This document shows, one piece after another, positions 1 to 52,405 of a stretch of 64,000 bases of DNA. This DNA is from Apostichopus japonicus (taxonomy: Eukaryota > Echinodermata > Holothuroidea > Aspidochirotida > Stichopodidae). The notes below the pieces were generated by a model. That model did not search any database and was not told the DNA's origin. It saw nothing but the letters and a program-made list of their open reading frames with translations. Within the stretch, counting starts at the first letter, position 1, and each line of letters starts with the position of its first letter. Position numbers and translations under genes: made by a program. The DNA lies in assembly GCF_037975245.1 (NCBI RefSeq), contig NC_092576.1, forward strand, positions 41,544,611 through 41,608,610. Direction: 5' to 3'.

Positions 1-187
1 TACCTCGTTCGTTTGATGAGATGCATTTTTGGGCTCCCTTTAACCGGCCCCAGGGGCCACATGCAGCAGAGCGACCACGGCAGACATCCACTTTTGGATA
101 TACTGGGTTTTTCCACAAATGTTCCAATACTCAGATATTGGTACCTCGTTCGTTTGATCAAAGTGCACTGGGCTGCCGGTCTATGTG
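1..187. repeat. Tandem repeat, ~140-bp monomer (two partial copies)
   Basis: The 17-base string tacctcgttcgtttgat occurs at 1 and again at 141, giving a monomer of about 140 bp that continues off the left edge. The repeat stops near 187, where sequence paralogous to 26,524 onward begins. It therefore marks the left border of duplicated unit A. Open reading frames across it are incidental. Confidence 0.6.
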
Positions 188-1446: not shown

Positions 1447-3856
1447 ATTCCTATCTATGTCCTAGCCCTGTACGAGTCATTTAGCCACGTGGATAAATGT
1501 GACGTCATCCTAAGATCAGGTCTACGACTATCAGGACTGTCATCAGTACATAATGTGTACATATATACAGAGGACGGCAGAGAAGTGACACAACAAGAGA
1601 TTGTTGATATATTGATGTATGTACAGCAGTCACACCGAATAAAAAGTATGAGGTAAGTATATTAAACATAGTTCACGTTTACAAGCGAACCCATTCAATA
1701 CTTGAATATTCTTTTCATTTATTATTACGGAGAAACCGTAATATGTTGCTTCAAAGTCCTTAGTTAGGGCATCCTCGAACACGTTGCTGGATACAATCAT
1801 CGGGCTCCGAATGAAATATTTATGTCAACACCATCATAGGTTAGCTTTACACGTGGTTTCGAACTAAAATATGATGCAAATATAACGCCACTGGAATAAG
1901 ATTCAAAGTAACCCCTTTATTTACGTAAGATATGTATACAATATTCTTGTTTCATACGTTTCCTCTACAGTTCAAGTATCGAGGATGAAAGTCCAAAATG
2001 GAATTCTTGAAAATGTTCGACTTTATTTTCCTTATTGGAGTTGAGACCTAAAAAGAAGCTTTTAATGTGGTTTATTTATAATGCGAGTATAAAGTAGTAA
2101 ATAACGGAAAATAACATCAACGCATAAGGCCTTTAAGAAATATATTAAGTATTGATCATCTCAGGTTTAAAGTACAGAGAAGGAATGTCAAGAAAATAAT
2201 GAAGGTGAAGAGACGGTAAGGAAACACTGACATTAATCATGGTTGGTTCTTACTGATCAATACCCGTCGTTTAACTTATAAACTTTGATAATGATCAGAA
2301 ATAAATTACAAAAGAATTGTTTAGGAAGTCTGGATATGAACTGTAATGTCAGAAGTACGGAACATTATGTCAGTTTGTATGTATTTATTCCAGAGGGAGA
2401 TAAAGCACATCGACATATTCATACCCCCAACAAAAAAAAATGTTTTTTATATCACAGGCATATTATACTACTTAATATATCGTCTCTTTCAGTGTTACTT
2501 TCTTATTGTGTCATTTAATAACAATAATTTTTTCCAAATATCAATCGAAAGTTATTGATATGGATGCACCGGATTTGTATATACAACAGGGCATTCGTTC
2601 CTCTTTTGATATCTTCATCTCATAACCCCCCCCCCCAAAAAAAAAAAAAAAAAAAAAAAAAAACAGAAAACAGAAAACAAACAAAAACAAACAAATAAGG
2701 ACAACAAGAAAAAAGTGTCAGTGCAAAGCGGATGCCACTGAATTAGTTTATTCATTAATATTTGCAGAATACATAAAACATTTGGCTTACCATTATACAA
2801 TTATTTGGACAACCATTCTACAACAATACTTTATGATATCTCAATTGGTTGAAGTTCTCAGTAACTTGGAATTAACAAGCTCATTGTTTCAATAATGCAT
2901 TGCATTCCTTTGAGCGGTAGATTACCTATCGATAAATCTACGTAGTACTGTACTATGTATATGGCATACTTCCTGAAAGACATATAACAATGACATGGGG
3001 TCCGGCTTCTAACTTTGAGCACAACTTATTTTTGTTACTTAAAAGAACGTAATACTATATGTGTGTACTTTTGTATGAGTCTTTGGCGGAAATAGCTTGC
3101 CAAATGCGTGTGCGTGGGTGCGTGTGTGTGTAGTGTGTAAGGCTGCGAGCTGCAGATAATGATGTTGCGCAGAAGAAGGTACGTTCATATTCAGACTATG
3201 TATGTTTCCATTGTCTGAGTTTACATTAGTTGAGTATCTTGAATTAAGTCTCGATGATTACGATGTCTACAGTAATCCATATTCAATGTGAATTTATTTA
3301 ACGCCATGTTGAGGAATACATTTAAGTATAAATGTATTTTAAATTGTTTCAAAATATCAATTATCATAAATGATCTTACTGTCTTTCTCATTATCCTGTA
3401 GTTTCTTCTACTGTATTCTACCTGCATCAGTTCCAGTCGGATCCATTCCTTCGGATTGGCTGGCAGAGGATGTCACAGGTATCACTTATACAAAAAATTA
3501 AATTGATTGATCGATCGGTTTAAGTAAAACTGTCATAGAACAATCAAAACGATCCGGATTACAGGATAAAGTTCAACAGTTAATATATTTAGCACATTTG
3601 GTTGTTATTTATTTCTAGTATTAGCTTTAGGGGATGGACTTAATTAAATAACGAGGGTATTACAACAATGTTAATGATGAACAATGGTACAGATCAAACA
3701 GAAATGATTCTTAGATAATTAAAATAAAAAAATATAAAAAAATTGCAATATACATGAATCAATATTATAGTTCACTTGTTTTATCAGTCATTGGAAAGTA
3801 GATTGACTGACATCAGGGTATGAATTAGATTGATTGATCTATCGGGATAATGAAGG

Positions 3857-3918
<62 letters not shown>

Positions 3919-6900
3919 ATATATATATTATTAATGAATTCAATGGAGATTTTCGCTTGAGCGTAGCATCAAACTTATCAACGGGACTTCAGCTTAGTGT
4001 TTTATAACAGTGGTAATTGTATCAGTGGATCATGGTTTATTTTATCCTGCACTAATTGTGCAAGTCATTTTTGGTAGGCGTGTCGGAAGCCTTCTTGGTT
4101 TTATCCCTATTTTAAGAGATATATATATCATGGCACCACATAGGCTCTACAATATATTACGAGTTTATATTTAAGGAAGGCGGTGTGGGTTGAGGGCGTT
4201 CGCTGCATGGCGCCCCAACTGACTGTAAACTGGTGCCATCATTATGCCACTTTGTGTATTCAACTTTATTTATCATTGATTATGCTACAAGTTGAAATAG
4301 TTACGTTCTTTATGGCATTCTGGTTTGTGGTTATTATATAAAAATTGACTCGTAAGAACTAGAATCAGAGAAAGTGTTATCAAACAATATTCACAGAACG
4401 GTTACGATTGTTATTACCTAATAGTGAAGTCAAAACTATTTTGATTTGCCATAACATAATAGTCGAACATGCACAATGATACACAACAAGATTATTTTAT
4501 TCTGGTTATATCGTCAAGAGAAATCTTGCCAACGTTATACGAAAAAAAAAAAATTGATAACCAATATTTCGACGACTCTTTCAGTGAATCTTATATTTAA
4601 AAAGAAAATAACACATTTCGAGAATCTCCCTTCGTGACCAATGAATGGGGAATATAAAAAAGACTAGTTACAGAATCGTCTTTCTGATATGCATTGCCGA
4701 TTATGAGATTATGGTAAAATGGCAAAACTAGGATCTTTCTAAATCCCTGCAAGATTTGTTTATACATTATTGTTTTGTATATTAGTACGCTGCCTTTTGA
4801 ACGGTGGTTTAGTTGAGGTTTGTCAAAACGAGGATCTCGTTTTGGAAAAAAAAATGGATGTGACGAATAATGTTCTTTGTAATCGTTGGTAGGATTGCAG
4901 GTTACTTGTAAATTAATACAAAAGTTGCTTTAATGTTTAAATCACAGAGCATGCCCTTCGAACTAAACGGGCAGGGCACCATACGTGGCTGATATCCGCT
5001 CTCGTGAGGGGTTTAAGGTAGAGGATCAGCTCTACTTTGAATTTTTTGTTTTGTTTCGTATTACGTGCTAAGATGCAAATTGGTGATATAATTTTCACAA
5101 TTTAAACTATATTTGAGAAATAATAAACCAGTTCGACTGAACGCGCGTGTGTTATACGTTGTTTTGTCACAAACCTTTTTTTTTTGGAAATTTATTATTG
5201 ATTTGCAGTTTATTAATTGGAAATGGTTCTTAATGTTTAAGTCAGTAGAACAAGCATTCTAGGATCATCATGTTAAATTTCAAATTTGGTTTCTTAAGAT
5301 GATGACTATGTTAACACTTTGAGTGTTATTTCTTTCGTTTGTGAGTGGACTGCATTTTTTAATTGGAAATTAATTGTAAAAATCTGTGTGAGATGGTGTA
5401 GGTTAGGGTTAGAAAATCCAACTAACAGCTACATTTAGCCGTTTTCTCAGCGTATATCACCAATTATATTTATGCTTATATGACATGAACTGTTTTGTTT
5501 ATTGTTGGTTTATTCTAAGAATAATAGACGCATACACACCAGTACGGTCCCCGAGAGGAATCTCTGTGGTTCGATTCCTGCATGTGCCTGATGAGTTCCA
5601 AAAAGGACGAAACCGGAAGTAAAGTGGAAGTTTTCTGTTGTATTTATCTTTAATGATTTAGTATATCTGTCATACCACTTGCTGCACTCTCAATATAATA
5701 TATATTTATATTTAAATCATCAGTTTAAACCCTTTCCTCCTCCTTGCTTGTAGTTGAGTGGTGTCCAAAAAGAATTGGTAATGACGGTTATAATCTTGAT
5801 CTTCGAACAGGTGCTTGGTTGGTGAGTATCTTTAACAATCTCCTTCAAGCGTTGGTTCCTTCCCTTAAAATATGCATAATAATACAATCCGGTAGCTAAC
5901 AACAAATATGGTGGCGCTGTAACATCATGCAAACAATGATGGTATTCGTTTCCATCAAATTCAGTAAACTATTGAGAGTTCCAAAATCCGTCAAAAATTA
6001 GCAAATCAAATGAATGCACCAATTGGTAAATATGTCATATTGAATGTTAGATGAACGACATGTTTATCTTACTAAAAATATTTTAACAAAAAGACGAAAT
6101 GATACCCGAAACATATTTTCAGCTTCTTAGATTAACAGGTAAAGTATAAAATCACAATAGACCTTTTACTGGACTTGTCATCTTAAGTTTTTTACAATGA
6201 ACAGTTTGTTATCATTTGTTCTGCTTCTGAAAGATAGAATGGCCAAATACATATTAGCACACTGTACTACAAGATATACATTGCGGAAATGATTTGGTTC
6301 GTTGTTTATTAAATATCAAATAACTTCATTACAATAAACTATTGATGAATTTAAAACTTGATACTTAATACTTGAATTCAGTGAAAATCTTTAACTGAAT
6401 TATTAAGACTTTGTAAGCTATGCATTAAATGAAACGAATCAAGCCCTAGTTTAATACTTTCCGTTTGAAAGAAAGGTTGTCATATTAATGAAATTTTATT
6501 CAGGTCATTCGTCAGACTAAATTATATAACAGAGTAGAGTCAGGTAATAGGCGATTGAGAGTCGGTTTAAACCAGAGTACTGATGAATTTGCATCATTAA
6601 CCATAAAAGTTAAACTATGCATGTTCTGCATTCTAAAATATTTGGCACTACCAATATCCTCATTTTTCGTGTTCAGTTTTTGCTTCTCAGTAGTTGGGTG
6701 GTTTGAGATGTTAGACAGAAAACAAGAAAACCGCTTTCGAAGAAGCGAGATGTTATAATACATACATAAATATTCAGTACGATTTATAGTTATCATTATG
6801 ACAAGGAGGGATTAGGGGAAATTTAGGTGAAATAACAATAAGCTGAATACGTTTCCTAAAGAGGAAGATTTCGATACATTATCTCTGTGTTATTGAGGAC

Positions 6901-9900
6901 AGCGAGGCGTGGTTCATATAGGTATTTAGTACTTACATACCGTACGTAAATCATGGTACGTGGAATGTTGGTTGCACTTGATATATACATATATTTAGAC
7001 TACGAAGAGGCATATGTGGGAGGCATAGGTTGCATACATATAAATATATACAGTTTCCTGGTAGGTACGATGTAAGAATCATTTGTAGTGGGACATAAGT
7101 TGTATATACGCAAAAATTACAGCGACATGTGCGTCGTTCAACAATGCCCATGCTCATGCACAACCGGCTCATCTCTGATACGTTTAGTATAATGCATCAT
7201 TTACAAAACTGTAAAGATTACACCTGTAAGTTAAACAAATTGACTATACCATTGGTTAATGATGAACTTTATAAAAAAAAAGCGAACTGAAGAACGACGT
7301 TGAGCATTAACATCATAGTAACCTAAAATATAATAAGTTCATCCAATGCCATAATATTAGAAGCGATCGATTGCTTCAATTTCTCTTTAAATCAGTACGA
7401 TGGTTTCCGTTTGACCAAGTCAAGGCACAGAAAAGACGTAAGTATTGCAACGTCAGTGTGAAGTGATACCATTTCATTTTAAAGTTAGCGGATTCACTAC
7501 TCGAATCCAAACGAAAGATTGGTAGCACTTTACTGATTGAAGAACATTCAGATCACCCAGTTTTATGTTTCAAAAGGTACCTTCTACACTTTAAAACCTC
7601 TACGGTTAGCATACTGAAACGCCAACTTTACGATATTGTAACAGAACTGATGCTTAAAATTGTGGTACAATCTGCCCCCCCCCCCCTACAAAAAAAAACT
7701 GAACATTCATTGAACTCTCAAATAATTGGGTTTGTTATAGGACCCCGGTCAATTTAATTGCTAGGCTTTCAGTTTGTAAATTATAGCTACTCGACTTGCA
7801 AATGGATGTTTGTTTCCTAGTTCGAAAATACCAAATTTAACAGGTGAATGTACAAAGACATAGAACCTAGGCTATCACAATACTTAGTATTTTGCGGATG
7901 ACAGAGTTTACTTGTTTTTAAAACTAATCAAAATAAATACTACTAAAATTTAATGAATATTAACTATCACTTATTAATATTCTGCAGCAACACTTTGAGG
8001 ATAATAAATGAGTATAGTTATTTCAATAAGTGGGTCTTATACATTACTCTCATCAAATAAATAATGATGTGATTGGTTCATAAGCAGCAACATGACGGAT
8101 AGGAATCAATCGTAGCGTTCAGCTTACATTATCAGATATTCTTGTAATTCTCGCTTCACTAATTCAAATCACCTTCTTAACAATTCTTTTTTGTTCTTGC
8201 AAACAACGGATTGTATAATGAAACTCCGTGTATTAAAGTATTTGATCATGTTTGGAATACATTTGCTTTCGTTATGACCTTGCAGGATGTCCTTCCATAA
8301 CATCCCGTTTGATAACAAGTTTTAAAAAATTAATATTTATTTGCAAAAGGAAACGAAAAAAAGGAGGATATTATAAGAGCGTGAACTACAATTAAAAAAC
8401 ACCTGAAACCTGTACTGAAATATTAAGGAAGAAACACTGATTACCACAGTCCACGAAGACTAGTGGTTGTTTAATGTAATTTCGATGTAATGACACTCAG
8501 AGGCGAGAACATTTGATGTGACAATCATCTTATTAGATCTTGCAATATAATGTAGCCTTTCACTCATACGGTGAATGTAAGGCAAACCCTGCAGTGATAT
8601 ACACTAGACTAATTGGACAATTGCATGTACTTCCGGGAACATTTCCATGTAAATATCAATCACACAACTATAATAAGTAATCTTACAATGCTGATGCTTT
8701 CCATACGGTAATTTGTAATTTCTTATTTCAGGTGGAAAGATTCCGAAAATATTGGAGGTAGGCTTTAATTAAAGTATATGATGTAACTTGGCGAAATGAT
8801 TATTTCCGTAAACCAACTATCGAGTGGATTTTATTAAATATTTGGAGTTTTTTAATTCTGAACAGAATGAACGATATTCATACTTAATGTAAACCAACAC
8901 CATTGCATATGCAAGATATCTTCGGACATGTCATTATGGAATTAAGTCCTATACTCAGCACCGCCTGACAATGCTTACATGCATTTGATCCCTCGTTATT
9001 TTTTTGTAGTACATCATAAACATTTCGTCTTCTCGGTAGTAAAACTGATAATTGTTGTTGTCGTAACCAACCCAGTGGTTATCTGGACACAAAAAGCTGC
9101 TTAATAGTGTTGCACACTAAACTTTTGTGAATGAAAGCTTAATTGTGTGTGACTTAATTTATCACTGAAAAATGTTAAGATGTTAACTGAGTAATGTTTC
9201 ACCAATAAGCTTTTATTATGCATTCGCTTTCATCTTATGCAATGGTACTGTGATTGGCTCATATACTACAAAACGACTGATATAAATCAATCATGGCTCA
9301 AGCCTTAATAAAGTTAAGAAAAGTCTTATATTATTTGCTTCACTAGATCTATTCGCATTCTTAACCCGTCTCCCTTGTTCTTTATGTTATAAAGTTTTTT
9401 GATCATGTTTGCAATAAATTTGCGTTCGTTATGCCCTTACCGAATGTCATTGAAAATTAATATGTAATTAAATATAGGGGAAAAGGGGACATGATTAGAG
9501 TTTGAATTCCCTAATAATAAGAACCACTGACATACACTGAATATTTTAAGTTAGAAAGAATAGTTGCAACTGTTCATGATCACTAGTGATGTTTTAATGG
9601 AATCTTACCCATTCAGTGGATGTTAGTTAAACCCTGCAGTGTTATACACTATGCTTAATGGACAATAAATGTACTTAAAAGGACAGGCTTCAATTATTGC
9701 ATATGTTCTTCTTTACTATGGTATTCTTCGCGTTTTACATAATCAAATGTTTAGCCTATGAATCAATTAACTGGGTATAAAATGGCTCACGAACGTAAAA
9801 TATATAATATGTGATTGTTTGCTTAGCGATGCGAAATATTTCTGATGACGGATATATGTTATTATCCACAGGGAATCAGAATGGCAAAAGATCCGTACGG

Positions 9901-9917
9901 CATCAGAAGGGACGTGA
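1447..9917 (+). CDS. 3' end of an NLR-family gene: C-terminal cassette exons (5' part absent)
   Basis: Five exons in continuous phase: 1,447-1,652 (206 nt), 3,402-3,478 (77 nt), 5,754-5,821 (68 nt), 8,732-8,757 (26 nt) and 9,872-9,917, which ends in TGA. All have AG acceptors and GT donors (GTAAGT, GTATCA, GTGAGT, GTAGGC). The peptide matches the last cassette of the complete NLR gene at 27,097-33,494. Shared motifs are ILRSGLRL, TQQEIVDI, MYVQQSH, a C-LP-P-IPS-W stretch, LDLR-GAW and RTxSEG at the C terminus. Function is unknown; it resembles the region after NACHT in NLRs, possibly degenerate leucine-rich repeats. The NACHT exon and start are not in the window. Because unit A begins inside the preceding intron and follows a satellite, this may be an orphan fragment and not an intact gene. 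AATAAA signals follow near 10,125-10,135. Confidence 0.75.
3854..3930. repeat. (TA)n microsatellite
   Basis: An almost pure AT dinucleotide run with a few T interruptions, inside an intron of the unit A gene. Confidence 0.95.
5541..5617 (+). ncRNA. Hammerhead ribozyme-like motif (possibly decayed)
   Basis: CTGATGA at 5,588-5,594 is followed by a short hairpin (GTTC paired with GGAC, one G-U pair, 5,595-5,608) and then GAAA at 5,609-5,612. That is the conserved hammerhead core in the correct order and spacing. CCG after GAAA can pair with CGG at 5,545-5,547, which is followed by TC, the expected cleavage dinucleotide. This forms helix III in an open-helix-III layout. The intervening segment contains a perfect GGAATC/GATTCC hairpin and a tRNA B-box-like GGTTCGATTCC. 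The base pairs of helix I next to the core are poor, so activity may be lost. Hammerheads of this kind are known in Penelope-like elements and retrozymes. Confidence 0.5.
8060..9680. repeat. Internal duplication within the last introns of the unit A gene
   Basis: Sequence around 8,069-8,640 recurs, diverged, at about 9,250-9,670. Matching landmarks are gtgattggttcata versus gtgattggctcata and the tacacta-acaat stretch near 8,600 and 9,645. The two copies sit about 1.1-1.2 kb apart and flank the 26-nt exon at 8,732. Unit B has a related duplication around its equivalent mini-exons. Confidence 0.6.
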
Positions 9918-11640
9918 TGCACTGATACTATACCAATGATGTTAGCAGGATAGTGTCAAGAGCAACTGCAAAACACCTTGCTCATTCCATGTATAATATA
10001 ATCAAATACATGCTGTTTTATCCAAGAATTGAAAAATACTGAATTAACTAAACTGTCTAAACTAAAATATTAATAAAAGTAAGAACTAAGTAGAATATTA
10101 AATAATTTGAAATATTCCACGAAAATAAATTATTACAATAAATTACTCTCTAATTGTTGTTTTTGTATATAAGCAATATCATCATGCTGCGTGACTTGTT
10201 TCAATACAAGTTTGTTTTTCACTTCCTGTGTTACGAGACCCAGATTGTTAGAATGTGTTTGTATCTAACTGACTTAAACGACTTTATTATTAATTGCCTT
10301 GCATAACTGTTTTAATTTGAGACAGTTTCAAAACACTCGAATCTTGTTGTGTCAGACACTGTAGTTGAGTGTTAGTATATAAATATAACCTATCACCTAT
10401 AGTTCACCTACCCAGATAAATAGGTTATACGATTTGCTCTTATGTTTCTTGTTTTTGGTGATTGATTTTGATGACATCAAAGTCAACTTTATATTGTATA
10501 CACGAGAATTGCTATATAAGTGCTCTTGCAATTTCATGGACCTTCTTATTTCTCAAACCTCAAATTAACTTGATCAAGTTAAGAAAATTTCCTCTGTAAT
10601 TTTGTTCAAATAAAGTAAACATTTGATTCCGAGTAATTAATTGAATGAACTCTCCTCTAGGTGTCTCGATGTACTTACATTGATATTAATTAGTGTCCGT
10701 TACATTAAAGAACGGAAGGTTGACAAATTCGAAACCTTTTAATTTCCATATTATTATTTGAAACCATACTTGGATAGTCAAAGCCAAAGCTAATAACTGC
10801 ATCTTCTTGGGATTTTCCTTATTAAATAGCATCAAAATGTTCTCAGATTCTCCTCAACCTGAATAAGATGTTATGCCAATCACACATTATGAATTGACAT
10901 TTTTCTTCTGGCTTATTCATGTTGATGATAATTGGCTTAACGAGAACGTAATTTTTCCATATAACATAGTAGTATCTTCCTGCAAATCCGTACAGACTTG
11001 TCTTGGTCCTTGTAAAATTATAAATATAAAGAACTGCTGACTTCCAATTTGTGAACGTTTTTCTTTTCTCTGTGTGTTATGTTTTGCTTTTATGTCTTCA
11101 GTGGTGCTGACAAACTTCGTTTGCTTTCACACTTTTTTTTTCACGAATTATGTTACATTTAATTTGAACTTGCAACTTTAGCATACGATTAAATTATAGG
11201 CCTATGTGTCAGGAATCACGTACTTCAAAATATTGTTGTGTTTCTGAAACTACATGTCATCATCTTTTACAGGCCTTTTAATTAACACAATTATACATAT
11301 TAATGCAGAAAACATGTACATTTGGAAAAGCATTGTACCTTAATTATTTTCATTAGCTTCTGGAACTGTAGAACATTTGTAAGATTAACACATGATACAT
11401 TCATCAAAGTTAAGTCTTCTTGTTTTTTTTTCATTGTCATAATGTTTTTTTTTTCGGCAATCGATTAATTATTTGAACTAAACAAGAACAGACAAAAAAG
11501 TGTCGTGTCGTTTACTGAATGTTGCGATTAACGTATATTTTGCCACTGATCCTTTATCTCTGTTCTGATACGTATTATATAACATTTCGAATGGTAACAA
11601 TTTATCATCAAACTAATTGATTAATCCCAAAAAGGAAAAT
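9918..11640. other. 3' flank of the unit A gene, no gene seen
   Basis: AT-rich sequence after the TGA, including presumed 3' UTR with AATAAA near 10,125-10,135. It aligns with 33,495-35,200 in unit B. No convincing coding exon or RNA gene was found on either strand. Confidence 0.5.
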
Positions 11641-12184
11641 ATCTATCTCGCTGATTTCCCATTGTTTCGACAACAGCAACAAATCTTTTTCCTTTTCTAT
11701 GATATTGATTGGTGGTGAAAAAAGCGTTGCCAATATCGTCCCCGTTTTTGGGTAGTGGCGATTTTGAACTTTTGGCCAAATGAGTTATATATATTATTCT
11801 TACATATTTTGAGGATGAGAAACGATTGAACCGGGCTAGAAGTCCTAATACTGTCTATTTTTTAGTTATATTTGACTGGTTTGTGACGAATGCCCACCTA
11901 AGGCCCCCTCTCGTTTTCACGTATTGACGAATACTTTCATCATTATAACAACTCAGTTGCACAATTTGCCTTATTTCCATGCGTTTTTTTTATAACGACG
12001 AATATTGCCCTTTGGAACAAGCCGAACATTACAACCACGTCATACTGATTTGAGAACCAAATAACTGCTACTTGAAAAAAATCCAGGACTATGGAAAGGT
12101 AATATTTTTAACCTCCAAAACGGGTACTGGTAGTATACATCGACGACAGTTTGACCTTTTTCTTGCAATATATTACCATTATTA

Positions 12185-12640
12185 AGCAGAGAATATTATA
12201 TAACATCTAGTGTGGCTTACGTTGTGTCTCTCTTTCACCAAAATGCCAAGGATTTTTTCAATACTATTATTATACCACATATGATCTATGTAGTGCCTAC
12301 CTGGTACTCATTTTATATTGCAAAAAGGCAAAAATACACATCGGCCTTATTTAATTTAGATTACCATATACTTTTAGAAAAAGTAAATGCTGCTGCTAGA
12401 ACTGAGTTTACAAGAATGTGTAATACGATTTAACGTGATCAGAATCACGTTTTGTGTACTGTACTAAAAAGTCTCCTGCACAAATTGAACATAAATCTAA
12501 GAAATCCCCCAAAATACCGAACATAAGTTTACAGAAACTCTTTTATTTACCGTACTGCTTGATGCATTCCCTCCGAGCACTTAGAATGTTTGTTGTAGTC
12601 TGTTTGTTATATCGTTTTATGTATTAACTTTTGTAAGTGT
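12185..12640 (+). mobile_element. Decayed non-LTR retrotransposon, reverse transcriptase C-terminal fragment
   Basis: The frame at 12,212-12,433 and its continuation past a stop to 12,531 resemble the C-terminal end of CR1/L2-like LINE ORF2 proteins. There is a hydrophobic IIIPH-Y-P-WY segment, then an ARTEF segment. After the stop there is a D-NH-L stretch and a downstream YRT, as in the usual D-xHP-x-RxR tail. Internal stops show it is dead. It lies in an interval (about 11.6-13.9 kb) absent from unit B. The similarity was recognised by eye only; a generic AT-rich chance frame remains possible. Confidence 0.4.
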
Positions 12641-13129
12641 AAATGTATTCGATATGATACCCTATCATCTTAACATTTTATCCCCTTTTATATTATTTAT
12701 TCTTCTTGTTGAGGTATTATATGACTCTTCTCTATATATTTTATATGTATACAGGAAGGGAAACAAAAAAAGGGCAGCCAAATACTATAGTAAAACTTGA
12801 AAACACTTGAACAATGGCAGAGTTGTTGCCTACTCTAAATCCAATGATTCACACGAGGTTATACATTCCGTTTAAGGGGATAGTATAATGCAAAAACTTT
12901 CAAAACGTTTGAAGGATACTGAGAAACTATTGTCAGAGACATTCAAGTATTACACTAACTTAAAAATGAAAAATTGCACACAATTTTCCGTAGATGGTGT
13001 CCTTCATTAGAGTTCCGACTTAACAGATTACGCAACTGGAACTATTATGTTTGCAACTGCATGTGTTCACATTTTCATCAAACCGGAATAAAATATACCA
13101 CGTGCATGCAAATACTTTGTCTAGTTGAT

Positions 13130-13640
13130 ACATTGTAGAAATTCTTGGGGGTTCTTTTTAAAATAAATACAATCAATGTACTACCCTTTCAGCTGCCGGC
13201 TCTCCTTGACCTTCCTACCCCAACATACCCCTATTAGACGCCATCCTTGTCACCCAAGAAAAACATACTAAAACACTTATATCCGCCTATTACTCATAAA
13301 AATTCCTCTATTTTATACATTGTAACCAAACGTGGGCGTTGTTTTTAAAAATTAATAAGACCAATATACCACCCCTTTAACATCATATCCCTCATCATAT
13401 CCGACTCCATCATTGCCACCCAAGAAAAACAACCCAAGAAAAACATACTAAAACATGTATGTTGATACCTGCGTATAGCCCATGCAAATTCCTTGACTCT
13501 TTCATACATTGTAGTAAACTGTGGACATTTTTTTAACATCAATAAGACCAACGTATTACCGCTTCGATTACTTCTCTCTATCTTAAGGTTATTTCAACTA
13601 ACATTCCCCCCCCCCCCTCCACCCCGCCTTTCCCCATTTG
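13130..13640. repeat. Three diverged tandem copies of a ~187-bp repeat
   Basis: Copies begin at 13,130, 13,317 and 13,506 with acattgta. Each continues with a G-rich stretch, an A/T stretch and aat-aagaccaa-gta-ccc. The first two also share the ccaagaaaaacatactaaaac block. The last copy runs into a poly-C tract at about 13,606. Confidence 0.65.
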
Positions 13641-17912: not shown

Positions 17913-17937
17913 AGATCGGTGATGACAGTTCGTGAGA

Positions 17938-18124
17938 ATGGAAAACCTTAGGTCAAAGCTTGAAACATTAGATGTGGGTTCATCTGATGAACACGCCAGT
18001 GGATATGAAGAACCGTCACTATCATCATCTGCTCAAGCTGCTCAAGCTTTTGTGACGTCATCGCAGTCATTTGAAAGGCCCAAGTTTGTTGTTAGGACTG
18101 AAAATGTGAAGTCAACAGTTACAG
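17938..18124 (+). CDS. NLR gene exon 1: Ser-rich N terminus
   Basis: This exon encodes 62 residues plus one base (phase 1), with the donor ACAG|GTGAAC at 18,125. The peptide is low complexity: acidic and Ser-rich, with an SSSAQAAQAF segment, ending in a short basic FERPKFVVR stretch. It has no recognisable effector domain and no signal peptide, consistent with a cytosolic protein. An upstream coding exon cannot be fully excluded, but the in-frame stop at 17,923-17,925 argues for initiation here. Confidence 0.65.
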
Positions 18125-21100
18125 GTGAACAAGGTTTTTTCCATGTGTTGTTTGACTCTAATGTCCATGTTCTGTCAATGGATTTATCTCTGTTACTTTT
18201 ACATTCTGATTTTTGCGCACAAGTATGTTAGAATTATTTTGATTTCTTTGTTGGAAATTATTGTTATGCGATCGAATTTTGTTATTCAGCCTTGTTTCTT
18301 AAATACTTCCACATCATAGGAACTTTCATTCATATATCAACGACAATATATTGGATAACCTTCGATAAGGCCTCCTCAAAAGAATGAAAAAGAAACTAAA
18401 TCAGAATTGAAATACAATATAAAAGGGGACATTCAATGTTATTCTACTGAATGATAAGATTAATATCTCGTTTTCACTGAACTATTAGTTTAGTATATAT
18501 TCAACAAGTAGAATACCTCCAAATATTCCGAAGTTTGCATTGATCGTAAACCTCTCACTGATCGTAAACCTTTAGGTTTCCTACACAGTCATTATTCAAT
18601 TACAGGAAGATTTGTATTTTGTCACTTGAAACCCTCTGGTAAGCACAGCAGTTTTATCTATGGTTGCACTTCTAAAGAGAGAGTTACGTTTTCCACCTTC
18701 TCGATAGACTCGCCTAAGGATTTGGATGAAGCTCCAGAACTTTAACACACGTCTTATTTGGATATTTATTTCTGCGAGCATGTACATACATGACATCATT
18801 AAATGTAACTTTCATCCGTTAATTCGATTTTTTTTTTATTTCTTCACAGACAAAAAGTCTCTTTTAATAGATGCCTTGAAAAGGCGATATAAAATACAAT
18901 ACGAAGCTATCAAACCAATACCGTACATTAAGGAGAGACTATATTGTGTAGATAAGGTATTTGTAGAAGGAGGTACAGAGTTCTATTCTGTTAGAGGAAC
19001 AGCAGATAAAGGTGAATGGGTACGTGTGAATTCTTACAGAGATATTTTCACAGATTCCCGAATTAAATCACAGCGTCGTATCATAGAAGCAGGGGCCGGG
19101 TATGGCAAGTCAACTGTAACCCTACAGCTTGCATATGATTGGTGCAACTGTGTAGAAGGTTCACCTCTGAAAGACGTAGAAATTCTGATTCTTCTCCGGT
19201 TAAGACAGCTTGGAAATGTCAAATCTATCTACAAAGCAATCAAACTGTTCTTGGTACCAGACGAACCGCGAATCAAATCAAGTGATATTAAAAATATCAT
19301 TGAAAGCTGTTCTTCTGTTGAGGTACTTCTGGACGGATATGACGAGTATCCTGGTAAGGACAAACGTACAGGAAGTGACGTAGACCGAATTATTACAAAA
19401 TATTTGTTCGAGGATTTTGACGTATCCTTAACAACCAGATACCTTCCAAAGGAATATGACAGATATAATACTAAGCTAGTAAGATTAGTTGGATTTGACG
19501 AGAAAGCACGTGATCAGTACATTCGTAAGGCTATTGCTGGAGTTAACGAAGAGATTGTTGAGGAGATTAAACGCGCTTTGAAAGCTAACCCGATACTTGA
19601 CGACTTATGTCAGGTTCCTATCTTCTTTGTTATGTTTGCTCACATGACTCACGAAAAGGAATATTTTCAAACACTCAAGTCGGTTACAGAATTATTTCGC
19701 TACATGATCAAATGTTTCCATAATCACATGAGAAAGAAATCCCTGGATATGAACACAAAGAAACACATGAGTGAGTATGACATTGAGCATACTGAACTGA
19801 GTAATGTAGCGTTTGAGGGCCTCAGTAACGAAAACCAACAACTATCATGGGGTAGGGACAAACTCGGTGAACGACTTGGTCAAGGGTTTTATGATCACTA
19901 TATCTTAGTTGGTATCTTGGTAGAGGAAGAAGTAGCTGACGTCACAAATGTAATGACCTCAGTCAAATACATACAGACGAAGACCGAAGCAAGGTTCTAT
20001 CACAAGCTGTTTTGTGAATATTTTGCATCTTTTGCATTGGTAGTTAAGGTTGCTGCTGCTAGAAATACAACTGAAGTGAAGAAAATTCTTGATAAATTAG
20101 ATCCATTCGATCTTCAATACCTGTATCGATTCAGCTGTGGGGTTGACGCTACAGTTGGGAGCAAGATAATAGAATACTTGAAGGGAAGAAAAGACTGCGA
20201 TAAGTTTGTCATACTCTGCATCCTGGAACAAACTGGAGAGATAGATGATGACATCAAGAAAAGTGTCAGAGAGATCTGCTCTAAGGTGTTTTTTCTCTCT
20301 GATAGCAACAGCAAGCTACTTCAAAGATTTTCTATTCAGCTGTTGGATATTGCGTCTAAATGTAATGTAAGTAAGACTTTATTGATGTATACGATATAAA
20401 CTGCTGCTCCCTTAGAAATGAGAGCGATACCAGTGTTTGTGTTTTAATTGCTTTTATAGTTCATTTTAACTGAATGGAATATTCCACAACAACTGAAAAT
20501 AATTAAGCTTTGTTTTCAGGCAAAAAACAAACAAACATTTATTCGACTTTCAAGTTAATCGGTAACATACGATATACACTAACATATAATAATAATGACG
20601 TTAATTAAACATTAATTTTTTGACACTTACATCTATTTAATGTAATATTCATTCATACTTTTTAGTTTTTAGTTATCGTACAACATATATTTAAACGTTT
20701 ATTTGGCGACTTATCTAAAAAAAAGCAATACATTGTTTGTTTGTTGCTGATTGTAATGCTAAGTTTTTATAGCTGAATATGTACTTAATTAAAGATATGC
20801 TGAGCCCACACCAATATTACCAACATCTGTATATGATGTGTCTGTGAAGGTAGCCAAAGAATAAACTTTACTCATTTATGTGGTAACACACAATTGCCTT
20901 AGAGCTCTCTGTCTACAACCATTTAGGTTTTATTCAGAAGTCTACAGCTTATATATCAACTCTCTATGAATACAATCCACCATGGATATCAATGTTATAT
21001 TTTGTTGACTCCCTCCAAACCAAAGTTATATTTTATATCCAAACACTTAACCTAAGTATCCTAACTGGTAAACAGTGTAACACATGAACGTTCCAGTGGT

Positions 21101-24100
21101 ATAAATGGGGAGTGCCTTCTTATGGTGTTATACACAGTGATTGTCGAATTCGTGGGTGGGCGGCAGTTGAGGAACATCTAGATATTATACATGTCAAAAT
21201 GTTAGATTGCGATGCTTTGCTGTGCGTATATAACATGGCCCTTTTAACACATTTTTAGTGGGTGGGCTATTTCTAAAAAGGGACCATCATGACAATATCT
21301 AGCGTAGCAAGACATTTTTGTTTGTCATAAATGCCTCCCAGATTGCCGGGAATAGAACTTCCCAGGCCCCGAAAGTTGCATTTAAACATTCTTCATTTTA
21401 AGATATCATGTATTAAAAATTACACTTCAAAAGCAAACATGAATTAGAACAAAAATACAAATGGTAAAATCACTTTGTAGGGGAAAACAAGATTCTACGT
21501 TAAACATGTCGCTAAAGCTAATTGAAATAACGCATACTGTCCAGGCGTTCACATTAACATAGGCCTATTTGAATTTCGGAAGTGGAAATCTCATGGACAG
21601 CTCCACCTGTCTTCGCAGGACACGGCCCTAGCCTTAGAATAAAGCCACTAAAAGCTGAGAAGGCTGTTTAGAACCCTTAGCGCTAACACGTTACTCCTTC
21701 AAACATACATATTAAGCACGATACGCATCAACACAACCATAGTGATATATATATACATTATCTTTAAGTATGGACTAAGTTAGGCTACATTAACTTAATA
21801 TAACAGCCATGTGGTGCGTAGTACCACGTAGCTGTAACTCAATAGTTATACGCAGAGTAGCCATTTCGAACGTGACACAACCGGCCAAGTTAAATCACTA
21901 TTTCAGTGGCGGGGGTGGGGGGGGGGATGTTCCCCTCACTGCGACCGGAAGAAATGGTTCAACCGGGGAATTAAGCAGGGGACAATAGAACCATTGCTAC
22001 CGGAGTAACCTCCTTCTTTTTGTAACTTGACACAACATATTAATTACCTTGCCTTCATAGGGTTACTTATATAGACCTGATTTATATTTCTAAATATGCC
22101 TAAAAATGCATCTCGACCCTTTCTACATTAATCATACGTTTTCAGTTTTCAAATTGCCCCAACACGATTTTCGTAATAAATGTGCAACGGTGATGCACTA
22201 TATACACCTTAACCAAACCTCTTCTGGGGTTTCATATTTCGCATGCCTTTAAAATATACATCATTTAACGCTATCTTAACAACATATTCTGGTTAACAAT
22301 TATGATCAAGCTCTTAACTTTGAGTCTTGAAGAGTCCATGAGAGCCCTGGACAGAAGAAACAGTCAAAAACGTGTTTTTTTTTTAAATTGTGGAAATTGT
22401 TCTATTCAGTCAATATCTTACTGCAAAATAGATATTCAATAAACATACTTATGGTTTAAACTAAATTAAACTGTTAAACATTATATAATGCGTGATCGAT
22501 TCAACGATGTATCTTCAAATGTATTCACCAATCTTTACTTCAATGTTATATTTTGTTCATCATTTAATTTATGTTTTTCCATTAACATTAACATCATAGT
22601 TATTTGATGCATACATCTTTATGCCATCTCGGTTTTATTAATTGCTTGTGTAATTGAATCATCTTTCTTTTGTTCTTCCCGCAGATCCCGATTGTTGATC
22701 TTTATCTGTTTAAATCTTTCAGCAAAGCTGATAAAGATAACATCGTCCTCCGTTCTGGTCTTTCTTTGGGTAATCTTCCTACAATATTCAAGATAAACGT
22801 AGATATAAAGGAAGGAAGAGAATTAACAGAGGAAGACGTCAAAGGTTTATTACTCTATGCAGAACAATCAAATGACTTACGTGAACTCTGGTAAGTATTA
22901 CTAACAGTGTTAGATACATGAAATGTCTGCATTATTGTTATAAGAGATCTTTGACCTGGTACATGGATCGAACAATCCGCATGGCGATGCTATAATTAAA
23001 CAGGCTGCATTATGGAAGCTATTCCGTACCCACTCGGCTCCATTCACATTCATTCAAAACACTTAACATGTCGTCGGAACACACGTCTAACTTTGCTGTA
23101 GGAGAATTATTTATTTCATGAACATTAAATATCTATGAAAGGAAAATGAACTAGAAATTTCTTCCTTTTCCTTTTCCTTTTCAGGTTCCTCAATTGTACA
23201 CTACCAGAAACAGTCCATCCAAATTATATTCCAATCAGATTAAAGACATCGAATGTTAAGGGTAATTACAAAACAATCGATATGTTTAATATATTCATAA
23301 GGTGTGAGTATAACAAAAACTTATTTCCGTGTCCTTCTGTCTCTACCAAATAATCAGTCAATAATATTACAGCGAAACAAATTTCATGTTACCGTATCGT
23401 ATATGCTCTGTAAGTTATCTGTACGAGTAATGTCATGAAAGCCATCTACCAGCTACCAATAATACGATAACATTACTGTTAGACATTCATGGTGTAGGTA
23501 TAGGTTGTATACTTTAGGTGTCATTCACTGTATTATCGATACCAACAGCTATAATTGATCAATCATTAACCAAACAAATTTATAGATTATCCTTCCTATA
23601 TATAATGATAAGGTTTATGTTATACCCGACGCACAACATAACATTACCAATCTGGTTTAAGAAAATAACTAGAAAGAGAAAATGATTACACAGTGTATGG
23701 TTGAGTTCTGAACGAGTAAGTTACATCAGAAAGCGTGCAATTTGTTTGTAAGGTAAAAGAAAAGCAATCTTTGGTCGTAGCCGTATTTACGGGAATGCCG
23801 CCTACAATATTACCATTTGTTTCTAAATAAACAGTCCTAATTTTTACTAAAAAGCTATCATGGGCTATCATGAAAAAAGTGCCATAACATGAATTAACAA
23901 CTACGACAATCTGAAATGTTATAATATATGTCAGTACTGCACTATATATACATAATTAGTGCAATATTTTACTCCTGTCCTAAGTGTATAAACACAAAAT
24001 CAATGACATTCAGCAGTTGAAACAGGGTTAAAAGAAGTACAAACCAAATCCCTTTCTTGGTTTTCCCCACGGACATTGCTACAATGGAACGATTAAAACT

Positions 24101-27100
24101 ACGAAATATTTTTTCTAAGTTTTTCTAGTTGCATAAGGACATAAGGTTGCATAAATAGTTGTAAAAAACATGCAGTCTGTTCCATGACAATGCTTTACTT
24201 ACAACACCCTGCATACATATGATACAGGAATTAATAGGAACATAAAGGCACACGTTCGTGATTGTTATTTATACAGGCTCAGTGAGGAATAATTTGTGTG
24301 ACTTATTTTTAAACCAAGTCACATGAGAATAAATTACACAAGACGTGATTACTGGGGCATGTGAATAACATTTCAAAATGTTGAAGATAGTCGTAACGTA
24401 TAACCTATTAGTTTATTCACTTACTCTGACAGTATTACAATCATAAATTGCAAGTTATAAAGATTGACACAATCACATCCAACATATATTGTCATTTTGT
24501 CATGTCCTATAATAATACTTGAACAGTATTATTGTAATCGAGCACAGTAAACGTTAGGCTAATGAGTGCGTGAAACTATCCCCTTAGTGTGTACTACACA
24601 GTAGGTCTACTTTCTTACATGTATGCCTATCGTAGGTATATTCATTTTGTATGGTCAATATGTTGCCTTACACATCAAACTTCATTCACACTAGCCGAGG
24701 CATAGTACACCAATATCCGTTAACGAGACCAAACCAGGTCAATACAACTCCGTAGCCTAGCCTATGCAGGGCATACAATACTTATTCAAGGAGCCTACTT
24801 TAGATTTGCTAGTCACATTTGTCTCTAATATGGTATTTTCAAAGTCACATATAACACTGTTTACCGTTGCAACATTTCTTGCGTGTTATGAAGTTGTAAA
24901 TTCTATTATTTCCGACCATACAGTGGTTTTTTACCCATAGGGACTTGTCGTGGAGGCGGGGACAGTTCAATTGGAATGACATCATTCTCCTCTGATTATT
25001 TTGCTAAACCACTATTACATAACATAATAAAGAAATATTGTTATTCTTTGATATTTATGATGTTAATTATTATGATCACGTTATGTTTCTTTAGACTCTG
25101 CAGGTATGTAACTATTACAACAACTAATACTGTATCAACATTCATATTGTGATAATATCTTGTCACAGAATGATGATACATGCAAATATGTTCAAACTTA
25201 AATGACACAAGAGTTTAATTAGGCCATTAGTAACATTTCCTTATAACATCTGGAGAATTCTAATCTCCCTAGCTGGTCCGCTGATTGTTGTTTAGTTTAG
25301 CAAAGATTTACCAAAATTTATAACAAATAAAATAACAAAGATGATTAATTTCGTTTACTTCTCTGTTTTGTGTGATGCATGGTTGTCATAGTTACCGCAT
25401 TTTTGATCATTTTGATCATAACACGTTCATTACAAATCTATCTTTGACCTCAGTGTCACTCCAGGATTTTGTTAAGTATACATAAACATATACATAAATA
25501 TATAATATTCTCCAACATGTATAGACCTATCTCTCCTATACAGTCTTCTCGCAAAAGTCTGGCAGTTATTTGGATCTCCATTCTGGGCAGTGGATTAAGG
25601 TAAGTGTATATGGCTATGATACACAGTGAAACCACGGTAAAATACCTCATGATGAGTCAATATCTCATATGGGTTTCGTACTTGTTTGACATATTATTTT
25701 GCAAACTTCACAGTAAGACTATTACATCTTCTCTGATGCACTCTACCGTTCCTTTTATGTAAACTAAGCTACAGTCAAATTATGAAGTCATAGAAGTGAT
25801 AACAATATAAACAGACACAAAATTCGTGATTCTTTAGTGAAGATCGTAACCATATATATCCATGTGTTAGTTCTTATCAGTGTTCATTATAGAAATTAAC
25901 TGGAACAGATTGCAAGGTATTATATTTACATCTTCATACAATAATTACCTAACGGGAAGGTCAAGGTTCATCGTGGGAGTACATGTACAATTTATATCTT
26001 ATTTATTGCCTGTGTGTAATATTAATTGTTAGGTTGATGGCGTCGATACTATCACTAAACTGTGTTCAAAAGACGTGACTATTGCTGAGAGTGACAGTCA
26101 GCCACAACAGAGGTCAACCATGCAGCTCCTGGAGAAGGCATCAAGTCATAACGTAAGTCAGTGTACAAACAGTTAAATATACAAACGTCAGCTTAACCAT
26201 AGAGCCACCGTCTACTTGAACATACCTATGGTATTATTGAAATATAAAAAAAATCAACTTCCAATTCTGCAACTAATTTGCTGGATATCAAACTGATGCA
26301 TTAACATTTACGTCTAGATGCAATTCTATTGACGAAGGGAAGTTTAGCTTTACTAAAGTTTTTTCTAATAAATCTTTGTCGCATAGTTTCATCTGCGTTT
26401 ATCGTACATTCCGTTGCAAACACCGAATGACTACATAACTAACAACATAATTATGTGTCAATTCAGAAAAGGTGTGTTTCCTTAATTCCCGGTTTTCAAA
26501 TTATATTAATATTACAAACTGTTTACAATAATATGATGACTGCTGACAGTTTCATATTTGCAATATATGAGCAATTGCAAACTTTAATTATTAATTTCAT
26601 GTAGACAATTTCTCAAGAGATGTTCGAGTTTTTTTCGCGGTTTTTGTATAACAGTGATAGGTTAACAGTGCCAAACTAGTCGTGGAACCTTATCTTCATG
26701 TGATATCGACTCAACCATTATGCCCATTGAAAGCACAGTTAACAATTTAGGCCATTTCCTTTGTTTAACAGGCCGAACAACATTCTCTTATCTGTCAAGA
26801 AACACAAACCCTGGTCATAGTTGTTCAGCTTAATTTACCTATTATTTTACCAGCTATAATGAAGCATTTTGTGTTTTTTCGTATTTTAATGGTATTCTGT
26901 TTTCAAACTCGAAAGTCTTTTTCAGACAAGACATTTTCAAACACTGACCTAGAATTGTACGAAAATATCGTTTTGCTAACTTATTTCAAGTAGCCTACTT
27001 AGTCAATAAAGAATGGTAATTACTGCTGCAATAGTCTGTCTATTTAATTCATTGCATATATAACATCGGCATCATTAATATTTTTCATTCCATCAGATTC

Positions 27101-30100
27101 TTATCAGAAGCTTGTTCCTACACCACTCATTTAGTCACGTGGTTGAGGGTGACGTCATCCTACAATCAGGTCTACGGCTACCAAGACTGTCATCAGTATA
27201 TATAATGTGCATAGAAACAGAGGGCGGCAGAGAAATGACACAACAAGAGATTGTTGATATAATGATGTATGTACAACAGTCACACACACTAGTAAGACTA
27301 TCGTAAGTATACTAGTATATGTGTCATATATCATAACTGAACGAATACTTACAGAGAAACCGTACCATGTTGCTTCAAAGTCCTTTGTTAGGATATCCTC
27401 AAACTCATTCCTTCGATATAATAATTGGGCTACGAATCAATCATCCAGTGTTCACACCATCCTGATCTAGATCGAAATCAGGCAGCTTAAACCGAGCACA
27501 GGTCAGCCTTCAACACGTGGTTTCGAACCAAATTATGCTGCAAAGTAACGCCACTGGAATAAGACTTATAGGAACCTCAGTATTTGCGTACAATATGTAT
27601 ATCAACAGCGTCCAGAATGAAATTCTTCAAAAACTGTCCACTTTCTTTTCCTTATTGGAATGGTGACCTAAAATGTAAGCTCTTAATGTGTTTTATTATT
27701 ATGCGAGTATAAAGTAGTAAATAACAGAAAATACCAAACTCAACGCAGAAAGCCTCGTTAATGGGGGAACAATACTGCTTTCTTAACTGTTCACATATTT
27801 GTAGTACACATATTTGTGCCTACAGTAATGACCTTTATCATGTCATTCATTTACGACTTCATTGAATAAAAATACCTTAAATTTCCCCGCCCTAATCCCG
27901 TTACATGTCGCCATATTAGAAGAGAGGGAGGCAGACAATTTGCGAAGTCATACATGCACCTGAGACAGTTTCTGAAAACGCGTTGCCAACTTAAATATTC
28001 ATATACAAAATGATAAACACCTTCAAAATTCGAGTAAATGTAAAATATTTATCTAATTTCGAATGATAGATGCATACGTAGGCAAAATGTAATTTTTACA
28101 TTACATTTTCGAAAAGCTGTATTTGCAAAATGACTCTCAACACATCCGAACAGTGAATTACATTGTATTCATTTGAATTCTAGACTTCGGCTTAATCACT
28201 TTCGTCTGAATATTACGTTTTTGGTTTATCCCACCTCATGTCGGGGTGATGCAGTTAATTCTAGGCAGTGATTGCCTGGGTTAATGTGTGCCTAAGTCAT
28301 ATTGAATTGCTCGAATGAACGTTACCTTTAACGACCTTTATACACAGTGTTACAGTATGTTGAGCAGTGTTACTATTACTAAGTTAATTACTTGTTACCG
28401 GTACTTCGGTTGTAACGGACATTGAACGATATTAAATATAAGCCTAGGTTACATCTCGTCTGTAAGCATAACTGAAAATCGAACGCATTTGGTCCGTAAG
28501 ATGGGTCCATGATGACTTGAGGCAGTTTCTTAAGATTTCAGATTAATATTGTCCAATTCAACCGCTGTATTAGTTTAAAAATCCGTGATAGATTAGTAGT
28601 TTCATCATATACCGTAAATGAACTTTTTTGTGTGTGCAGCGGTACTACGAGGGAATCTGCATAGTGGTAAGTCTGACTCTGCCGAGGTGCATGTGCGAAG
28701 TCATAGAAACGTTGCACCGTGGGTAATTCACACAAACATGGCCTCTTGAAGAGAGTGTGGTTGGGATTTAATGGGAAACTCATTTACGGAATGACATATG
28801 TATAAAAAATGTCCAAAACAATATAAGCATGTCCACAATAATATGACCATGTCCAAATTTATATAAACAAGACGAAACTAATCCAAGAGTGTCCAAAAAA
28901 ATAGGAGCGTGTCTAAAATAATATAAGACACGTTTTAAAAATACATTATGTCGGCATCAGTTTGTTGAGAGTGATTTTACTTGATTGTGAATAAACAGAA
29001 ACAAATTCGAGTTTTCTTCTCACCATTAATTATTTACAGGGTTTAGGGATACATTTAGTATAAAGTTATATGAAATTGTTTAAATTTGTTCATTCTCACA
29101 TCCTTTTGTTATCTTGCTGTATTTTCTCATTATCTTTTAGTTTCTACAACTGTCTACTACCTAGAACAATTCCAGTCCGATCTATTCCTTCGGCTTGGAT
29201 TTCAAAGGATATCAAAGGTATCGCCCATAAAACAAACCTTAAATTGATTGATAGATCGGTTTAAATAATTCTACAGTATAGTACATGTCGTTGTTATTTT
29301 TTTTCCAGTATTGGCTTTATGCGATGAAAAGATTTATATTACGGGAGTCGTAATATAATATCGTAATATAATCGATCCGTCCCGTCCCGTCCTGTCCCGT
29401 CCGCCCGCCCGTCCTTCCATCCATCCATCCATATATGTAATTTATGTCAGTATATATGTCATACAACTTGTTAGACATATATTATCTATATACATATTTA
29501 TATATTTATATTTAAATTATCAGTTTAAAGCTTCTCCCTTCTTCTTGTTTGTAGTTAAGTGGTCTCCATGTGGATTTGATGATAGCGAATACGTTCTTGA
29601 TCTTCGAAAAGGTGCTTGGTTGGTGAGTTTCTGAACAATGTCATTCAATCGTTGGTTCCTTCCCACTAGGAATAGATGCATAATATAATCTAGTAGCTAG
29701 CAGCATATATACTGACGTAGTAACATGCAAATAATACTGGTATACGTTCCCTTCAAATTAAGTAAACTATTGAAAGTTCCAAAATCCGTCAGAAATTGAA
29801 ATAAAAAAGATGAACCAATTGGTAACTTTTGATATTCAATGTTAAAAGAACGGCATGTTTATTTCACTTATAGAAATTCATTGCTTTTTTAGCTAAATTT
29901 ACTTTGTAATTTAAAACATATTATAATATAAGTGCTAACAGCTCTTAACTGAACAATGTCACTGGTGTAACTAAATGTTTCAATGGTTGAAACCTTAATG
30001 TATTTTTTAGTCAGAATGAACATACTGACACAGAGCCACGAAAAGAAACAGAACTGATCAATTACATCTTGTGGAAATGAAATTGTCATTACTTACTGCT

Positions 30101-38752: not shown

Positions 38753-52405
<13,653 letters not shown>

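Follow-up and report, generated by a model that had tools for sequence, protein, structure and literature searches.

Candidate leucine-rich-repeat-like recognition modules under diversifying selection in an expanded NACHT receptor family of the sea cucumber Apostichopus japonicus

Typical animal NLRs consist of a NACHT domain followed by C-terminal ribonuclease-inhibitor-like repeats of about 28–31 residues with the pattern LxxLxLxx(N/C)xL. The zebrafish NLR-B30.2 family, according to the available portion of PMC4852459, comprises nearly 400 NACHT genes, most of them on one chromosome arm, in which gene conversion differs between the NACHT domain and the recognition domain; positive selection is reported there for the C-terminal B30.2 domain, the leucine-rich repeats (LRRs) being not particularly variable. 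AjNLRC4 of Apostichopus japonicus is described, in the part of PMC8699970 at hand, as having no LRRs, and of 53 NLRs of the sea cucumber Chiridota heheva 22 are NACHT-only and one carries LRRs (PMC8913654, partial text). Such reports of sea-cucumber NACHT receptors without LRRs (PMC8699970, PMC8913654) leave the recognition part of these proteins unclear, and the module analyzed here is a specific candidate for it. The window, the whole stretch of 64,000 nucleotides (nt) studied, comes from contig NC_092576.1 of A. japonicus assembly GCF_037975245.1 (C16 in the following; C16:41544611-41608610, forward strand), and genome searches covered the assembly of 671.6 Mb in 35 contigs. It holds a NACHT receptor gene (the B gene) and the end of a relative (unit A), each of which carries a C-terminal cassette of three short exons. 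In our reading, to which we assign a probability of about 0.72, these cassettes belong to a NACHT receptor family that has expanded, and they serve it as recognition modules resembling LRRs, their diversity having come from duplication, gene conversion, and selection.

The cassettes of A and B (Table 1) align without gaps and, with their three exons joined, are open over 117 codons. A preliminary description of this DNA had counted about 50 codons with a replacement and about 7 with a silent change, and our recount gives nearly the same figures, 49 of the 117 codons changing the residue and 8 being changed only silently. The 79 nucleotide differences are distributed 38/23/18 over codon positions 1/2/3, and silent sites are more conserved than replacement sites, as had been stated, with 3 of 40 four-fold degenerate sites differing compared with 48 of 214 non-degenerate ones. 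The clustering of the replacements at the start of the cassette, at residues 35–43, and at the MYVQQSH flank, and the constancy of the motifs ILxSGL and TQQEIVDI between A and B, both noted earlier, are equally visible in the alignment. The ratio (ω) of the nonsynonymous (dN) to the synonymous (dS) substitution rate is 1.6–1.8 by NG86, 1.9 by LWL85 and YN00, and 2.4 by maximum likelihood, with a codon bootstrap interval of 0.96–3.89, dN at or below dS in 3.2% of 5000 resamplings, and a Fisher p of 0.038. The excess of replacements is thus only just above chance when the pair is taken alone, and because the bootstrap interval touches 0.96 one pair is insufficient for a conclusion about selection.

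Comparison with other parts of the same genes places the excess in dN. Between A and B the cassette has a dS of 0.15 and a dN of 0.32, the last 83 codons of the NACHT exon have 0.19 and 0.08, and exon 1 of module X, the first module copy of the B gene, has 0.19 and 0.11; ω is 2.09 for the cassette, 0.42 for the NACHT part (83 codons), and 0.58 for X. In the four intron blocks of the region 184-6073 that can be aligned, divergence is 0.15–0.18 (uncorrected), and for the gene-body blocks taken together it is 0.20, a total that counts positions 8544-8718 of A twice and includes some sequence beyond the stop. Replacement change in the cassette, with a proportion of replacement differences (pN) of 0.26, exceeds both silent and intron change; therefore dN is raised and dS is not unusually low. 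An artificially low dS was considered and rejected, since the NACHT exon, X exon 1, and the closer introns give matching values.

Selection was tested further on two clusters of copies, the larger part of the 150 copies scored in the genome lying outside them. Cluster 1 spans 41.13–41.60 Mb with one additional copy on contig C3 and holds 13 copies, including an identical second copy of B, whereas cluster 2 consists of 32 copies listed between 31.37 and 33.90 Mb among the 150 scored. Site models together with an intron reference, as proposed in the preliminary description for all copies in the genome, were thus run on these two clusters, and positive selection was found in both. For exon 1 of cluster 1 (11 copies, omitting the identical second B and L017, which bears a stop), twice the log-likelihood difference (2ΔlnL) between models M1a and M2a is 31.9 (p 1e-7) with ω 4.9 at 12% of codons; sites 4, 5, 7, 35, and 38 reach a posterior probability of at least 0.96, and sites 36 and 43 are weaker. 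The model over exons 1–3 (8 copies, omitting L010, L016, L017, and L018) gives 27.8; exon 3 is represented in it by four sequences (A, B, L009, and L011), because elsewhere it was not found, is shorter, or is broken. Six genes that are open in both the NACHT exon and cassette exon 1, paired by position, give 33.4 (p 6e-8), with posterior probabilities of at least 0.95 at sites 4, 5, 7, 35, 38, 40, 43, and 66. The signal in cluster 2, where the models use exon 1 with the length-variable alignment column 42 dropped, is stronger, with 71.2 for M1a-M2a (p 3e-16, ω 3.9 at 11.4% of codons), 77.9 for M7-M8, and 65.4 for M8a-M8, and sites 7, 9, 10, 19, 40, and 44 have posterior probabilities of at least 0.996. 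Across the models the selected class has an ω of 3.9–6.5. The one-ratio likelihood for cluster 2 is -2342.2 in our own codon code and -2342.3 in IQ-TREE. As internal controls, ω is 0.38 for the NACHT exon in five cluster-1 genes, with the stop codon of L009 masked, a gap entered for the codon of L011 that has a one-base deletion, and A omitted because it was covered over 83 codons only, and 0.50 for module X in eight cluster-1 genes, L017 being left out.

The backbone of cluster 2 is nearly fixed, and the most variable columns are 7, 9, 10, 19, 23, 40, and 44, each with an entropy above 1.5 bits and 6–11 different residues. Length differences in this cluster are whole codons and are confined to columns 40–44. 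Five hypervariable codons have a pN of 0.50 and a proportion of silent differences (pS) of 0.15, compared with 0.36–0.39 for the flanking introns, and the resulting ratio of pN to intron change (1.13–1.51) is rough because distant introns align poorly and the codons were chosen for their variability.

The selected codons favor the positions that would be exposed in a recurring hydrophobic pattern. The pattern reads L6-x-L8, (M/V)37-x-I39, and L68-x-F70, the usual LRR strand pattern (xxLxLxx); each module looks like a series of repeats of about 31 residues that carry it. When the five exposed places of each strand are grouped as a face (20 of 117 positions), this face holds 9 of the 14 cluster-1 sites with a posterior probability above 0.7 in the three-exon model (p 2.5e-5) and 4 of the 6 selected cluster-2 sites (p 0.007), p values that are indicative because the face was fixed after the variability had been seen. 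In the exon-1 model of cluster 1 it holds 6 of 7 selected sites. The ratio pN/pS is 2.55 [2.09-3.03] on the face and 0.66 elsewhere in cluster 1, 1.76 [1.50-2.09] and 0.72 in cluster 2, and 1.73 and 0.39 in module X.

Several observations weigh against this interpretation and have to be set beside the explanations that they favor. By the preliminary description, selection would be refuted if dN/dS did not exceed 1 over the family, and the exon-wide one-ratio ω is indeed 0.87, 0.91, and 0.96 in the clusters. The average of about 0.9 was nevertheless rejected as the deciding number, and it does not refute selection, because about 11–12% of exon-1 codons at ω 4–5 are mixed with a constrained backbone. 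Over 36 pairs of cluster-1 cassettes ω exceeds 1 in 23, is at or below 1 in 12, and is undefined in 1, with A–B giving the highest value of all. The NACHT exon has a weak positive-selection signal of its own (p 0.04), and the signal of module X falls short of significance (p 0.06).

If constraint had simply been relaxed, the cassettes would be decaying or unimportant, and the excess between A and B would be drift combined with a chance low count of silent changes. The borderline result of that pair by itself would fit such an account, as would the broken relatives L017 (stop, lost splice donor) and L016 (damaged exon 2) and the stops in 4 of the 11 listed NACHT copies of cluster 1. Against it, at the rate of the A–B introns 351 bases should contain 9.5 gap openings, but the cassette has 0 (Poisson probability 7.5e-5), and exon 1 is readable as open between AG and GT in 32 of 32 cluster-2 copies. 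The selected classes reach an ω of 3.9–6.5, also among the six genes open in both exons, and the NACHT ω is about 0.4. Relaxed constraint is therefore largely refuted, and we regard it as very improbable. That unit A might be a drifting pseudogene, a concern raised in the preliminary description, was rejected for its NACHT exon, X exon 1, and cassette, all of which are open, with no indel in the 351 coding bases and a NACHT ω of 0.42.

The copies are mosaic, which raises the question whether recombination or GC-biased conversion could imitate selection. In cluster 2, distances in one half of the exon are uncorrelated with those in the other (r -0.05, p 0.60), those of the exon and its flanking introns correlate weakly (r 0.18, p 0.01, and r 0.21, p 0.07), and in pairs such as L033/L034 the upstream introns are 2.5% apart, compared with 64% for the downstream ones. 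These data fit an exchange of segments, by gene conversion or by unequal recombination, whose breakpoints lie within the exon or close to it. In neutral simulations of cluster 1 on FastTree trees the maximum was 5.1 in 24 plain runs and 19.8 in 24 recombining runs, built of three differently related blocks, two of these runs reaching 18.5 and 19.8; the observed value is 32.4. For cluster 2 the observed value is 94.8, with a maximum of 7.4 in 12 plain runs and of 10.1 in 16 recombining ones, so that the real values of both clusters lie above all 40 recombining nulls. Naive site posteriors wrongly flagged 23–32 codons in 5 of 28 cluster-2 null runs; the likelihood ratios thus carry the case, and the site lists serve as a guide. 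The contrast in pN/pS between the face and the other positions needs no tree. Biased conversion as the driver was rejected as well, because the hypervariable codons of cluster 2 are GC-poor (0.28 vs 0.42 for the rest), the opposite of the expectation. Recombination in place of selection is, in our judgment, very improbable, and we retain selection on the exposed positions, with exchange between copies as a contributor to their diversity.

The assignment of the module to an LRR-like fold is a prediction from its repeat pattern. In cluster 1 (columns 1–94, shifts of 15–44) the self-correlation of variability (r 0.45, p 2e-4) and that of hydropathy (r 0.33, p 0.006) both peak at a shift of 31, with p values that take no account of the scan over 30 shifts; shift 31 also leads in the B module taken singly, but only weakly (r 0.15). 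None of eight module sequences matched an LRR family of Pfam at E 10 or below, no LRR chain was among the 8 matches up to E 10 in a PDB profile search of the module, which gave weak matches to ribosomal eL14 only, and no NCBIfam match to LRRs was found in the cassette. The AlphaFold model of the 68-residue exon, made with three sequences, is too poor to judge the fold (predicted local distance difference test 55, predicted template modeling score 0.35), and it places strands at 12–16 and 19–22 and a helix at 49–62, with no strand at 4–10, at the start of the face.

The predicted eleven exons of the B gene join into one open frame of 861 residues, in the order first exon, NACHT exon, module X (206/77/56 nt), 120-nt exon, module B (206/77/68 nt), 27-nt exon, and last exon (Table 1). 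The splicing drawn here is predicted from splice signals and frame, and the N terminus from the open frame. Pfam NACHT is the best match for the NACHT exon, with 26.4 bits and a curated cut-off of 26.7, and as to an N-terminal effector domain (DEATH, CARD, PYD), no Pfam family was matched at E 1 or below by the open reading frame 17926-18231, within which the likely first exon lies. The short and last exons of A and B total the same length with aligned stops, and the reading frame is kept through both tails because their one-base differences are opposite. Unit A is the same end of a neighboring paralogue of the B gene. Paired with it by position are an X exon 1 at C16:41536144 and a NACHT exon at C16:41530684-41532198, both upstream of the window; this NACHT exon has 505 codons, no stop, and 86% identity to that of B. 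A possible alternative exon, a 27-nt stretch flanked by AG/GT at 33224-33250, lies beside the tail of B, where the surroundings of the 27-nt exon are duplicated.

Table 1. Positions in the window of the predicted exons of the B gene and unit A and of the duplicated segment
Feature	Position	Strand	Remarks
Unit A, cassette exon 1 (terminal module), 206 nt	1447..1652	+	AG/GT bounded, open
Unit A, cassette exon 2, 77 nt	3402..3478	+	AG/GT bounded, open
Unit A, cassette exon 3, 68 nt	5754..5821	+	AG/GT bounded, open
Unit A, short exon after cassette, 26 nt	8732..8757	+	homologous to B 32788-32814; frame continues
Unit A, last coding exon, 46 nt	9872..9917	+	stop TGA aligns with stop of B
B gene, likely first coding exon (MENLRSK...)	17938..18124	+	ATG, GT donor, phase fits NACHT exon
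B gene, NACHT exon	18850..20366	+	Pfam NACHT E 7.1e-6
B gene, module X exon 1 (first module copy), 206 nt	22685..22890	+	homologous to exon 1 of A and of B
B gene, module X exon 2, 77 nt	23185..23261	+	open joined frame
B gene, module X exon 3, 56 nt	25544..25599	+	open joined frame
B gene, exon between modules X and B, 120 nt	26033..26152	+	resembles C-terminal end of NACHT exon
Unit B, cassette exon 1, 206 nt	27097..27302	+	AG/GT bounded, open
Unit B, cassette exon 2, 77 nt	29141..29217	+	AG/GT bounded, open
Unit B, cassette exon 3, 68 nt	29555..29622	+	AG/GT bounded, open
Unit B, short exon, 27 nt	32788..32814	+	open joined frame
Unit B, last coding exon, 45 nt	33450..33494	+	open joined frame; stop TGA
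Second copy of 20830-32424	52406..64000	+	11,595 bases, 100% identity
Second B cassette inside duplicate	58673-58878, 60717-60793, 61131-61198	+	duplicate also holds second X module

The identity of the duplicated segment at the end of the window continues past it at 100%, as seen with a 501-base probe at C16:41609386, and no NACHT exon lies near the second copy among the 85 scored of 567 candidates. The 11,595-base repeat is either an assembly artifact or an extremely recent duplication. Stretches resembling immunoglobulin (Ig) domains match on the minus strand between the receptor units at 47450-47833, 48426-48932, and 52224-52451, one of them clearly (C2-set_2, 30.1 bits with a cut-off of 21) and two below the cut-offs. 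A crude search upstream of the NACHT exon of the B gene for exons of Ig or membrane type was fruitless, no Ig pattern being found between 10 and 18.85 kb in plus-strand frames of at least 45 residues, a scan by which small exons could be missed.

The family is large and concentrated on C16. A protein query with B exon 1 placed 145 of the 150 copies scored (of 450 candidates) on this contig, and a search with X exon 1 placed 130 there and 17 on C7 among 150 scored of 635 candidates, the two lists overlapping. NACHT exons, 85 scored of 567 candidates, lie on C16, C17, C12, C7, C22, C14, C9, and C1. Because only the best candidates were scored, all of these counts are lower bounds. X-like copies are listed inside the cluster-2 interval in addition to the set of 32, and since an exon of the 120-nt type follows in 5 of the 12 cluster-2 loci viewed at 10 kb, the modules of this cluster are at least partly internal and not terminal. 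In cluster 1, L017 (C16:41353155), whose exon 1 is 96% identical to that of B and whose upstream NACHT exon is open, is a half-broken sister gene. L010 is an isolated open exon 1 on a separate contig (C3:17199733-17199932), and its exon 2 gave no blastn match in the rest of the surrounding 10 kb. The 17 X-like modules on C7, with near-equal scores (49–50% to X) among the 150 scored, suggest a separate recent amplification. Dozens of NACHT exons on C17, C12, C7, and C22 are about 68–71% identical to that of B, and those at C16:36-39 Mb are more distant (56–61%). B-like cassettes are almost absent from C17, C12, C7, and C22 among the 150 scored copies, and the NACHT exon and the cassette seem, from these distributions, to have had different histories.

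The following model would connect these observations. The cassette would serve recognition at the C terminus of a NACHT (STAND-type) receptor, in which strand positions predicted to face outward are under diversifying selection and the repeat backbone and the NACHT motor are constrained. Copies would arise by tandem duplication and would swap segments by gene conversion or unequal recombination, and selection would retain those variants that alter exposed positions. If other NACHT receptors are a guide, signaling would fall to the NACHT part and the module would bind ligands that vary, most likely those of microbes, in a role in innate immunity. Of the diversifying selection on a binding surface proposed in the preliminary description, the selection has held in two clusters, in the tree-free contrast, against the simulated nulls, and beside the internal controls, whereas the binding surface is a possibility suggested by the predicted exposure of the codons. 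Alternatively, the diversity could serve recognition of self or kin, or the binding of a partner receptor, and not of microbes. Selection on exposed repeat positions is silent on what is bound, and gene clusters in which conversion occurs are also compatible with allorecognition loci. In our assessment this alternative is unlikely. AjNLRC4 and AjNLR-new, NACHT receptors of A. japonicus, are implicated in the recognition and handling of bacteria in the parts of PMC8699970 and PMC13133943 available. For sea-cucumber receptors of this kind, the selected codons provide residues to test, and the natural variants on a near-invariant backbone, 32 of them in one cluster, provide material for studies of ligand specificity.

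Compared with typical animal NLRs, the B-type modules lie below detection in Pfam and PDB and are built of exons of 206, 77, and 56 or 68 nt. Since no C-terminal LRRs are recognized by a profile, the B-type gene does not count as a bona fide NLR under this strict test; it is a NACHT receptor that probably works like one. No description of B- or X-type modules was found in the literature examined, which included the available parts of PMC4852459, PMC8699970, PMC8913654, PMC13133943, PMC5521101, and PMC13228809. AjNLRC4 and AjNLR-new carry Ig and transmembrane domains according to the same partial sources; for the B gene a full-length open frame without an Ig domain exists. Those of Chiridota heheva are likewise sea-cucumber NACHT proteins, and the portion of PMC8913654 at hand describes no repeat module or selection. 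The likeness to zebrafish NLR-B30.2, as far as the source text extends, lies in expansion, clustering on one chromosome, gene conversion, and a selected recognition domain, but the selected part is B30.2 in the fish and an LRR-like module without a Pfam match here. A broader generalization, which we offer tentatively and consider doubtful as it stands, is that the "missing LRR" of an invertebrate NACHT family could be a cryptic, exon-built repeat with a few hypervariable positions per repeat, present in hundreds of copies mostly on one chromosome and exchanged segment by segment through gene conversion. A repertoire of this kind, encoded in the germline and presenting varied recognition surfaces on one conserved backbone, would in its logic resemble plant LRR receptors or variable lymphocyte receptors, without being assembled somatically.

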